Made by a program: the position numbers and the translations under genes. A stretch of DNA of 64,000 nt from Tissierella pigra (GTDB taxonomy: Bacteria; Bacillota; Clostridia; Tissierellales; Tissierellaceae). The notes under the pieces are model-generated. The model saw only the letters and a program-made list of their open reading frames with translations, was not told the origin of the DNA and ran no database searches. The stretch lies in the NCBI RefSeq assembly GCF_009695605.1, contig NZ_VUNQ01000001.1, positions 1-64,000 on the forward strand, read 5' to 3'. The stretch's first letter is position 1; each line of letters opens with the position of its first letter. Below, one piece after another: positions 25,996 through 51,011 of the stretch.

Positions 25996-26090
25996 GAAAT
26001 CTCTGTATTTCCAGGGCAAAGCTAGGGAAACCTAGTGACGCAAAGCCTGAGTCTAAAGTTATCAAGAGATAATAATGATCGTTCGGCTGC
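25996..26090 (+). promoter_or_regulatory. Cyclic-di-GMP class I (GEMM-I) riboswitch
   Basis: The conserved core is complete: CAGGGCAAA at 26012-26020, a P2 hairpin CTAGG-GAAA-CCTAG with a GAAA tetraloop, TGACGCAAAGCC, GTCTAAAG, a variable P3 hairpin (TTATC-AAGA-GATAA), ATGATCG, and GGCTGC at the end. These are the signature elements of the GEMM-I aptamer, including the GNRA tetraloop and its receptor-side sequence. It is followed by an intrinsic terminator and then the pilin gene. Confidence 0.95.
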
Positions 26091-26127
26091 ATAAATTAAT
26101 AGTAATATTATTTATGCAGTTTTTTTG
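26087..26127 (+). terminator. Expression-platform terminator of the c-di-GMP riboswitch
   Basis: CTGCATAAAT (26087-26096), a 13-base loop, ATTTATGCAG (26110-26119), then a run of eight T. Its left arm begins inside the last conserved bases of the aptamer (GGCTGC), so folding of the aptamer and of the terminator compete. That geometry favours an ON switch, where ligand binding prevents termination; this is inference. Confidence 0.88.
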
Positions 26128-48035: not shown

Positions 48036-48905
48036 ATGGATTTAAATAATGAGCTAAAAAGAATTAATTCTGTAATTGACATGGAATTTAAAAATATATT
48101 TAAAGACAAAGATGTTTATCAAAAAAGGATTATCGAGACAATAGATTATAGTTTATTTACTGGTGGTAAAAGACTAAGACCTATAATGGCTATTAAAAGC
48201 TATGAACTTTTTAAAGATGATATAGAGGAAATATTGCCTTATGCAGTAGCTATCGAAATGATACATACATATTCTTTGATACATGATGACCTACCATCAA
48301 TGGATGATGATGATTTTAGAAGAGGGAAACCTACTAGTCATAAAGTATTTGGTGAAGCTATGGCAATTTTAGCAGGAGACGGTCTTTTGAATTTAGCTTT
48401 TGAAACCATGGCAGATCATATAGATAAAAAAGCTAAGACTATTGAAGATTATAAAAAATATACTAAAGCTTTTAAGGAAATAAGCGGGTATTCCGGAATA
48501 TACGGTATGATAGGAGGACAAGTAGTTGATCTTCTAGCAACTCATAATACTATGTCTGAAGAAAAACTTCTATTTATGTATAAGACTAAGACTGCTGCCT
48601 TAATCCAGTCCGCTTTAGTAACAGGTGCTATTATTGGTGAGGCTTCAGATATTGAGGTAGAAGCTATGAGGGAATTTGGATTAAACCTTGGGTTAGCATA
48701 TCAGATTAGAGATGATATTCTAGATATAAATCAGGATAAAATTATAAAAAAATTGACCTATTTATCATTTCATGATTTAGATAGAGCAAAAATAGCAGTG
48801 GAGGAATATAGTAATAAGGCAATGAATTCTTTAAAAGGATTAAACAATAGAAATACTGACTTCTTTGTGGCTTTAACTGAAGAACTAATAAGTCGTGATA
48901 AATAA
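48036..48905 (+). CDS. ispA: Polyprenyl (farnesyl) diphosphate synthase
   Basis: 289 aa trans-isoprenyl diphosphate synthase. GGKRLRPIM binds diphosphate. First Asp-rich motif DDLPSMDDDDFRRGKPTSH at about 84, second DDILD (YQIRDDILDI) at about 228. The four residues between the first Asp pair and the next Asp, with upstream HTYSLI, fit IspA-type farnesyl synthases. dxs, which usually follows ispA, is missing; an OLE RNA gene is here instead. Confidence 0.94.
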   Translation: MDLNNELKRINSVIDMEFKNIFKDKDVYQKRIIETIDYSLFTGGKRLRPIMAIKSYELFKDDIEEILPYAVAIEMIHTYSLIHDDLPSMDDDDFRRGKPTSHKVFGEAMAILAGDGLLNLAFETMADHIDKKAKTIEDYKKYTKAFKEISGYSGIYGMIGGQVVDLLATHNTMSEEKLLFMYKTKTAALIQSALVTGAIIGEASDIEVEAMREFGLNLGLAYQIRDDILDINQDKIIKKLTYLSFHDLDRAKIAVEEYSNKAMNSLKGLNNRNTDFFVALTEELISRDK

Positions 48906-48911
48906 GATTTG

Positions 48912-48940
48912 TTGAATTTGAATATTATTTATGCTATAAT
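48912..48940 (+). promoter_or_regulatory. Promoter of the OLE RNA
   Basis: TTGAAT at 48912-48917, 17-base spacer, TATAAT at 48935-48940, with TG one base upstream of the -10 (TGCTATAAT). Predicted start is at about 48947, just where the RNA's terminal stem begins. Confidence 0.83.
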
Positions 48941-48945
48941 ATTTT

Positions 48946-49522
48946 TAGCTTGAGTGGTACAGTATTCTAGTCAGTACAACTATTCTAGAGGGCGGGGCTA
49001 AAAATCCGTCGAAGGGCATATCGATGAAGTTCCTTGTTTCGGCTTGCGACGCCCAGTCGTGGGCTGTTGCTGGGAGTAAGAGGGATGGGGCGATCTGCAA
49101 TGGCATGCAGGCGTTGACCCTACTCTCGTGGAGACATGATAATTTAGAATAAATAATCATGATAAACCTGCTATGTCTTGGGACAAATAGCAGAGTAGCC
49201 TGCCTTGAGTGAAGTATGGCGGATGATAAGTTCAATTTAAATTGTTGAAGGGCCCGATACATTTTAAATTCTGTTATCGAAACCTATTTTGCAAAAGAGG
49301 CTAAGGAATAGAATGGCTGTAGAGGAAAACTCCTAGACTGTTCCAAAAGAAGTAAGCTGTGGATTACAGTGCGGACTAAGTGGCAATCCAGTTCTATCTT
49401 TGGTGACAAGATTGTAATAGAATTAAAGGGAAACCGCTGTTATGGCGACAGACAGTTTTTATTAGGGAAATCCTGCTGGACCTAAAGCCGTAAGATTTAC
49501 ACAGTTTACTACCACTCTTAAA
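48946..49522 (+). ncRNA. OLE RNA (ornate large extremophilic RNA)
   Basis: About 575 bases without coding potential, GC-richer than the flanks and full of complementary segments. The ends close: GAGTGGTA at 48952-48959 pairs with TACCACTC at 49510-49517, extended by AGCTT with AAAGCT. Internal blocks such as GAGGGCGGGGC, GGATGGGGCGATCTGC, GGGAAACCGC and CCTAAAGCCGTAAGATTTACACAG look like the conserved core of OLE. It lies between ispA and a gene for the OLE-associated membrane protein OapA, the classic OLE setting. In Halalkalibacterium halodurans OLE forms a membrane-bound RNP linked to cold, alcohol and Mg2+ stress. Own promoter and terminator. Confidence 0.9.
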
Positions 49523-49550
49523 GCTGATAGCTTATGGCTATCAGCTTTTT
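49520..49550 (+). terminator. Intrinsic terminator of the OLE RNA
   Basis: AAAGCTGATAGC, TTATG loop, GCTATCAGCTTT and further T. It overlaps the end of the terminal stem (shared AAAGCT). oapA starts 44 bases downstream, so its expression needs readthrough or another promoter. Confidence 0.87.
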
Positions 49551-49593
49551 GTATATACAAATGTATTTACATATAAGTAATTGGAGGTAGCAT

Positions 49594-50193
49594 ATGAATA
49601 AAAAAGAAGATGAAAAAACCTTTAGTAGTAGATATAATATAAAATGGGTTTTTCTTATAAGTATATGGACTTTTTTCATGTCTGGTACTATTTCAATAAT
49701 TACTGGAAATCTAGTAAATAATTTAGATATTTTAATGGCTTTTCTTGTTCTAATTATAATAATGCTAATAGGTATTATATTTGATATTATTGGTATAGCC
49801 GTAACAACAGCCGAAGAGAAACCTTTTCATGCTATGGCGGCAAATAAAGTAGAAGAAGCTAAATTTTGTATAAAACTTGTAAGAAGTGCAGGACAGGTTT
49901 CTAACTTTTGTAATGATGTTATAGGAGATATTTGTGGAATAGTCTCTGGAGCTGCTGGTACTACCATAATATATAAATTAATGTCAAGATATGATTTAAT
50001 AGATGGAACAGTTTTTAGTATAATTATTACATCATTAGTTGCATCATTAACTGTAGGTGGTAAGGCATTTGGCAAGTCCATAGCCTTGTTTAATTATGAA
50101 AAGATTATTTATGGTATAGCTAAGATATTAAATTTTACCAATAAACACTTAGGCATAGATATATTGCCTAATAAAAGGAAAAATAAAAAGTGA
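49594..50193 (+). CDS. oapA: OLE-associated membrane protein OapA
   Basis: 199 aa with about four membrane segments: two near the N-terminus (WVFLISIWTFFMSGTISIIT and ILMAFLVLIIIMLIGIIFDI) and two in the second half. The conserved-looking core is IGIAVTTAEEKPFHAMAANKVEEAK and GGKAFGKSIALFNYEKI with a basic C-terminus (PNKRKNKK) suited to RNA binding. OapA binds OLE RNA and takes it to the membrane. GGAGGT ribosome site. Directly after the OLE gene, which strongly supports both calls. Confidence 0.9.
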   Translation: MNKKEDEKTFSSRYNIKWVFLISIWTFFMSGTISIITGNLVNNLDILMAFLVLIIIMLIGIIFDIIGIAVTTAEEKPFHAMAANKVEEAKFCIKLVRSAGQVSNFCNDVIGDICGIVSGAAGTTIIYKLMSRYDLIDGTVFSIIITSLVASLTVGGKAFGKSIALFNYEKIIYGIAKILNFTNKHLGIDILPNKRKNKK

Positions 50194-50213: not shown

Positions 50214-51011
50214 GTGAAAAAAAGAGCAGATATAATTCTTTATGAAAAGGGTTTAGTAGATTCACGAGAAAAGGGTAAAAGAGTAATAATGGAAGGCTCA
50301 GTTTTTGTTGGGAATCAGCGTATAGATAAACCAGGGGAAAAAATAGATGAAAATACAGAAATTACTATTAAAGAAAATCCGAATATATATGTAAGTCGTG
50401 GAGGATTGAAACTAGAAAAGGCTATAGCATCATTTGACCTAAATTTGGAAAACAAGGTTTGCATGGATATAGGGGCTTCTACTGGAGGATTTACGGACTG
50501 TATGTTAAAAAGCGGAGCATCTAAAAGCTTTGCTGTTGATGTAGGATATGGACAATTAGATTGGAAACTAAGAAATGACTCAAGAGTAATAGTTATGGAA
50601 AGAACTAATATAAGAAATGTAACTAAGGAAGATATTAAAGAGGAAATTGACTTTATATCCATTGATGTATCCTTTATTTCTTTACGCTTAGTTTTACCTG
50701 TAGCTAAGAGTTTATTAAGCGAAAATGGAGAAATTATTGCATTGATAAAACCACAATTTGAAGCTGGTAGAGATAAGGTGGGTAAAAAAGGAATAATTAG
50801 AGATAAGGATATTCACTTTGAGGTGATAAAAACTGTAGCTGAATTTTCTAATGAACTTGGGTTAGGAGTTTCGTGTCTTACTTATTCACCTATAACTGGA
50901 GCTACTGGAAATATTGAATTTCTAATATATTTAAAAAATGATATAAATGATTCTATTAAGGAAGAATTAATTGCCAAAGTTATTGAAGAAGCTCACAATA
51001 CTCTTAGTTAA
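50214..51011 (+). CDS. tlyA: TlyA-family rRNA (cytidine-2'-O)-methyltransferase
   Basis: 265 aa, GTG start. An N-terminal S4 RNA-binding domain (KKRADIILYEKGLVDSREKG) and a class I SAM fold (VCMDIGASTGGFTDCML, then DVGYGQLDWKLR, IDVSFISLRLVLP, IKPQFEAGR). Often called hemolysin A; the characterised role is 2'-O-methylation of rRNA cytidines. NAD kinase and argR, often next, are missing; recN follows 30 bases later. Confidence 0.94.
   Translation: MKKRADIILYEKGLVDSREKGKRVIMEGSVFVGNQRIDKPGEKIDENTEITIKENPNIYVSRGGLKLEKAIASFDLNLENKVCMDIGASTGGFTDCMLKSGASKSFAVDVGYGQLDWKLRNDSRVIVMERTNIRNVTKEDIKEEIDFISIDVSFISLRLVLPVAKSLLSENGEIIALIKPQFEAGRDKVGKKGIIRDKDIHFEVIKTVAEFSNELGLGVSCLTYSPITGATGNIEFLIYLKNDINDSIKEELIAKVIEEAHNTLS

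Follow-up and report, generated by a model that had tools for sequence, protein, structure and literature searches.

A complete OLE RNA locus in Tissierella pigra with a letter-conserved terminator hairpin before oapA

Introduction

OLE is a stable RNA of about 600 nt found at the membrane and, to our knowledge, among the largest conserved RNAs of bacteria, with a biochemical function that the literature leaves unknown. Its partner OapA is a protein that binds OLE RNA 2:1. An earlier note on a 64,000-nt stretch of Tissierella pigra DNA (the window) had placed an OLE gene next to a gene of the OapA type, with a terminator between the two. This arrangement raises the question of whether the locus encodes a complete OLE system and, if so, whether an RNA and a protein whose genes are separated by a terminator are set independently or together.

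The OLE RNA gene is full-length and has its own promoter

An Rfam covariance search with the OLE model RF01071 (gathering score, 50 bits) matched window positions 48938-49531 over the entire model (1-616/616) with 493 bits and an E value of 1.3e-141, so the complete OLE RNA proposed from the sequence is borne out by the kind of search that had been suggested for it. The match is the only one in the 3.96 Mb Tissierella genome, and its architecture is that of full-length OLE, not of variant 1 or 2, with every model helix aligned and one stem shortened. The transcript, with ends predicted from the promoter and the terminator, spans about 600 nt (48947..49552, + strand) and folds more stably than its shuffled counterparts (z -5.2). 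Within it, a helix with a k-turn region (49086..49121, +) and a P12.2/P13-type region with GGTGAC and GGCGAC loops (49398..49455, +) both fit the Rfam consensus and probably correspond to the reported sites of OapC and OapB, respectively, the place of the former and the exact limits of the latter being inferred with the help of the published description (PMC9723947).

The promoter, TTGAAT-17-TATAAT with an extended -10 (TG), lies at 48912..48940 (+), and the pattern TTGA..TATGnTATAAT recurs upstream of most OLE genes in relatives. Among 77 OLE-oapA loci from named genomes, a handful of which are truncated and carry misplaced starts, 68 have a promoter match of at least 9/12 near the OLE start, versus 21 in shuffles. 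The OLE gene of Halalkalibacterium halodurans has its own promoter, yet is embedded in a larger operon (PMC9723947). The two ends of the RNA form a terminal stem, with GAGTGGTA as 5' arm (48952..48959, +) and TACCACTC as 3' arm (49510..49517, +), and these arms covary across 58 OLE genes: on average 7.47 of the 8 positions pair, compared to 7.05 with randomly dealt partners and 7.21 at the top of 200 shuffles, with co-changes such as GGATGGTG/TACCATCC and CAGTGGTG/TACCACTG. Thus, the promoter and the complementary RNA ends described earlier are both present, as is the terminator (hairpin z -6.8).

Upstream of OLE lies ispA (48036..48905, +), a polyprenyl/farnesyl diphosphate synthase gene (PF00348, E 2.8e-51; NCBIfam FPPsyn, 273 bits), and 63 nt past the end of the OLE model match starts oapA (49594..50193, +), which encodes a 199-aa membrane protein; the placement of the RNA between these two genes therefore stands. 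Next come tlyA (50214..51011, +), an rRNA methyltransferase gene (TIGR00478, 274 bits), and then recN, spoIVB, and spo0A.

The region was also described as non-coding, and no sense-strand open reading frame (ORF) of at least 80 aa occurs within the OLE RNA. On the opposite strand, an ORF of 105 aa (48945-49262, -) has similar peptides in relatives. We rejected it as a gene, since the stop-free antisense length runs from 50 to 155 aa across relatives and the frame thus appears to be a chance product of RNA conservation. Against a sequence-only OLE profile, the reverse complement also reaches as much as about 240 bits, for example at positions 2335-2923 of locus L031 and at most OLE loci; such strong opposite-strand nhmmer matches are a product of self-complementary stems, so the strand should be assigned with care when the search uses sequence alone. 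Elsewhere in the window, a c-di-GMP-I riboswitch (RF01051, 61 bits) is found at 26005-26094 (+).

OapA, OapB, and OapC are all encoded

The product of oapA, taken alone, matched no NCBIfam or Pfam family, and no solved structure homologous to it by sequence was found. Its closest homologue by sequence is encoded next to OLE in Tissierella sp. P1 (80% identity by tblastn, 79% in the alignment), and its identity to the 39 other aligned family members, a set that does not include the H. halodurans OapA, ranges from 39 to 79%. Within the motif CNDVIGDI, D108 and D112 are invariant in the 40 sequences, and this DxxxD signature is distinctive of OapA and absent from CNNM domains (PMC11332333). The Pfam CNNM model is touched by 24 of the 40 family members. 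The predicted structure (pLDDT 87) has as its six best PDB matches the transmembrane domains of CNNM/CorB/CorC proteins, with 7m1t and 7cff at the top; the TM-scores are modest (0.43-0.47), and no E value falls below 0.001.

Co-occurrence of OLE and OapA has been published (PMC11332333), and it is nearly complete here. Of 100 relatives, 60 have an OLE match, and every one of these 60 has a strong OapA match; among the 40 without an OLE match, OapA is strong in one 71%-complete, fragmentary genome (G083) and in none of the other 39. Two further OapA matches were weak; at 448 and 483 aa, their ORFs have the length of CNNM proteins. Anaerofustis stercorihominis carries oapA and OLE at unlinked places of one genome (L090, L180), with an unrelated terminator behind OLE, and we dropped it as a case of OapA without OLE since the RNA gene is found elsewhere in its genome. 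In Clostridium sp. Cult1 and Cult2 (G085, G090), OLE appears split (L116 5014-5447, L117 5114-5359, L118, and L040). Because the gene is interrupted by contig ends and a run of N, we rejected a duplicate or split OLE; most likely there is an assembly gap, which falls in a similar part of the gene in both genomes. Taken together, the CNNM-like fold, the invariant DxxxD, and the near-complete co-occurrence with OLE confirm the protein at 49594 as a member of the OapA family and not of an unrelated one.

The genes for OapB and OapC, which the earlier note had proposed to seek elsewhere in the genome, are both there. OapB, a KOW protein of 93 aa, is encoded between adk and infA and matches the PDB entry 7k9b, "OLE-associated protein B" (E 6.5e-12). 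OapC/YbxF, of 88 aa, is encoded between rpoC and rpsL, matches the YbxF-type structures 3v7e and 4lck (E 1.4-1.5e-10), and is the sole L7Ae-family protein found in the genome. Judged by sequence, the known core partners OapA, OapB, and OapC are thus all present, the latter two at their usual chromosomal sites.

A terminator stem conserved in its letters

Behind the OLE RNA lies an intrinsic terminator (49520..49550, +) with arms GCTGATAGC (49523-49531) and GCTATCAGC (49537-49545) and a T-run at 49546-49550. As scored, its stem has 13 pairs and a 3-nt loop followed by 5 T, and positions 49520-49548 plus the T-run reach -18 kcal/mol (z -6.8). This hairpin or a near variant follows 50 of 58 OLE genes; of the remainder, only L005 and L180 have an unrelated intrinsic terminator close behind OLE, and the other hairpin-less genes have none. 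The exact pattern GCTGATAGC-N(2-9)-GCTATCAGC occurs in 37 of 100 relatives, at one place per genome, and in 36 of the 37 this place is the OLE 3' end, while the reversed control pattern gave no match in the 100 relatives. Across 391 genomes spread over the class, the pattern turns up in five that lie outside the order: in three of them it sits at an OLE 3' end, in the other two at unrelated genes. The last two (L184, L185), with no OLE and unrelated flanking genes, were rejected as OLE-linked; by a rough estimate from a 9-nt stem, about 1000 terminators per genome, and about 490 genomes, some 2 matches are expected by chance.

In 49 aligned cases, mean column conservation is 0.98 for the hairpin arms versus 0.82 for the OLE body, a figure that for the 5' arm is conditional, since the set was selected by that arm, in contrast to the unconditional count of 50 in 58. 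Departures in the arms are mostly single G-U wobbles, with one compensated pair, and the loop takes 35 different sequences of 2-16 nt.

An inverted repeat that is conserved to the letter and nearly unique in each genome could work as DNA, as the operator of a regulator, and not as RNA. This is very unlikely: an arm spacing that varies from 2 to 16 nt would hardly be tolerable for a dimeric DNA-binding protein, nearly all departures are G-U changes that preserve RNA pairing while breaking the DNA palindrome, and nearly all of the stems are followed by a T-run. Simple slow drift from a common ancestor is a better candidate, if still an improbable one. The hairpin-bearing rows need only about two changes on the OapA tree, compatible with a single origin, and tmRNA terminators also share their stems in part, the commonest stem 8-mer being found in 6 of 21, a rough control with these 21 terminators only. 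However, the same sequences have scrambled loops and a scrambled downstream gap; among the 9-nt windows of OLE itself, only about 8% match the arms in conservation; and 46 of 55 OLE terminators, from some 20 families, share the same 8-mer. Terminators do not usually keep their letters to this degree throughout an order of Clostridia, and in Tissierellales selection appears to act on the stem letters over and above pairing.

Another candidate reading is a terminator/antiterminator switch, in which a hairpin arm pairs with OLE and the folding of OLE controls oapA. The best partner of the 3' arm is often the conserved CCGCUG..UGGCG site of OLE, but shuffled 9-mers of the same composition pair equally well (ranks 62 and 91 of 150). 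With pairing no better than that of shuffled arms we rejected the candidate, and we consider a switch of this kind very unlikely.

In two relatives from different families that have neither OLE nor oapA, the hairpin is kept between ispA and tlyA (L179 1961-1982 in G019:C19; L220 1501-1523 in G048:C14). Both genes are lost in both genomes, so the hairpin can persist without OLE, where it presumably marks the end of the ispA transcript, and these relics make it less likely that its role is confined to the OLE particle. As a tentative proposal, which we hold to be possible rather than likely, GCUGAUAGC-loop-GCUAUCAGC may be an unrecognised element of clostridial OLE loci that is read by sequence, such that a cellular factor would set termination and hence the ratio of free OLE to OLE-oapA RNA, and that can outlive OLE and oapA as the end of an ispA operon.

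A proposed coupling of OLE RNA and oapA

From the T-run to the oapA start, the gap is 43 nt (49551..49593, +) and contains a GGAGG ribosome site (49583-49587); no promoter was found in it, the best match being 6/12. In relatives, most of the gaps between terminator and oapA measure 7-60 nt and show a weak promoter match or none. With so short and promoter-less a gap, oapA probably depends on read-through of the OLE terminator, and the anatomy of the locus suggests that RNA and protein are coupled. The earlier proposal that the terminator lets the two be set independently is thus not upheld, as there is little room for a separate start.

Independent regulation would take an oapA promoter in or after the OLE gene. 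The terminator does separate OLE and oapA, a promoter-like match of 10/12 exists inside OLE (49114-49143), promoter-like sites occur in the longer gaps of a few relatives (L168, L177, L182), and the two genes are unlinked in Anaerofustis. Nevertheless, any transcript started inside OLE must still pass the terminator, the gap here of about 45 nt offers no more than the 6/12 match, and the 7-16 nt left after the hairpin in L173-L176 and L178 are too short for a promoter, which together make a dedicated promoter unlikely. Very probably, this is a complete OLE ribonucleoprotein locus of the known type that looks functional, with OapB and OapC encoded in the genome and oapA presumably expressed by read-through.

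Under read-through, transcription from the OLE promoter would mostly halt at the GCTGATAGC/GCTATCAGC hairpin to yield free OLE RNA, and a minority of polymerases would pass it to yield an OLE-oapA message, such that one promoter and one terminator could set the ratio of OLE RNA to OapA. By analogy to H. halodurans, the RNA of about 600 nt would then fold, dimerise, bind OapA at the membrane, and carry OapB and OapC as well, and the particle might aid adaptation to stress such as cold, alcohol, Mg2+, and poor carbon sources. We rejected a terminator made leaky by a weak U-run: compared with tmRNA terminators the U-run is no weaker (p 0.47), so there is no need to assume frequent read-through. 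Upstream operon transcripts that read through could also feed oapA. According to the literature, the OLE RNA of H. halodurans is processed at its 3' end; the literature searched yielded no transcription data on OLE in Clostridia. No terminator was found between OLE and oapA in most Bacilli sampled, and one family of the order and many other Clostridia have no such terminator either, so the proposed setting of the ratio is not universal.

Comparison with known systems

The OLE class was described from the start as a known one, and its RNA, protein, and gene order are indeed published. The portions of the OLE literature searched, a scope that excludes the earliest OLE paper, contain no mention of an ole-gene terminator, and the conserved terminator stem may be a modest new detail. 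With the known core OLE parts, Tissierella is a further host for OLE study, and a letter-conserved terminator together with an oapA that would be reached only by read-through makes a testable proposal for how the amounts of OLE RNA and OapA are matched in Clostridia.

The OapA protein shares its transmembrane fold with the Mg2+ exporters MpfA/CorB/CorC (CNNM), which differ from it by having CBS and CorC domains and lacking the DxxxD; the genome encodes one separate CNNM (MpfA-type) protein, of 432 aa. Compared to OapA of H. halodurans and relatives, it has the same size of about 200 aa, helical membrane character, DxxxD, CNNM-like fold, and position next to OLE, and departs from them by host-specific divergence only. 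The RNA in turn agrees with OLE RF01071 in a match that spans all 616 model positions, its own promoter, the ispA-OLE-oapA order, and the encoded partner proteins, and differs in a shortened stem at model positions 199-243 and in the letter-conserved terminator hairpin at its end, a stem that has no counterpart in the Rfam model and that the sampled Bacilli lack beside oapA.
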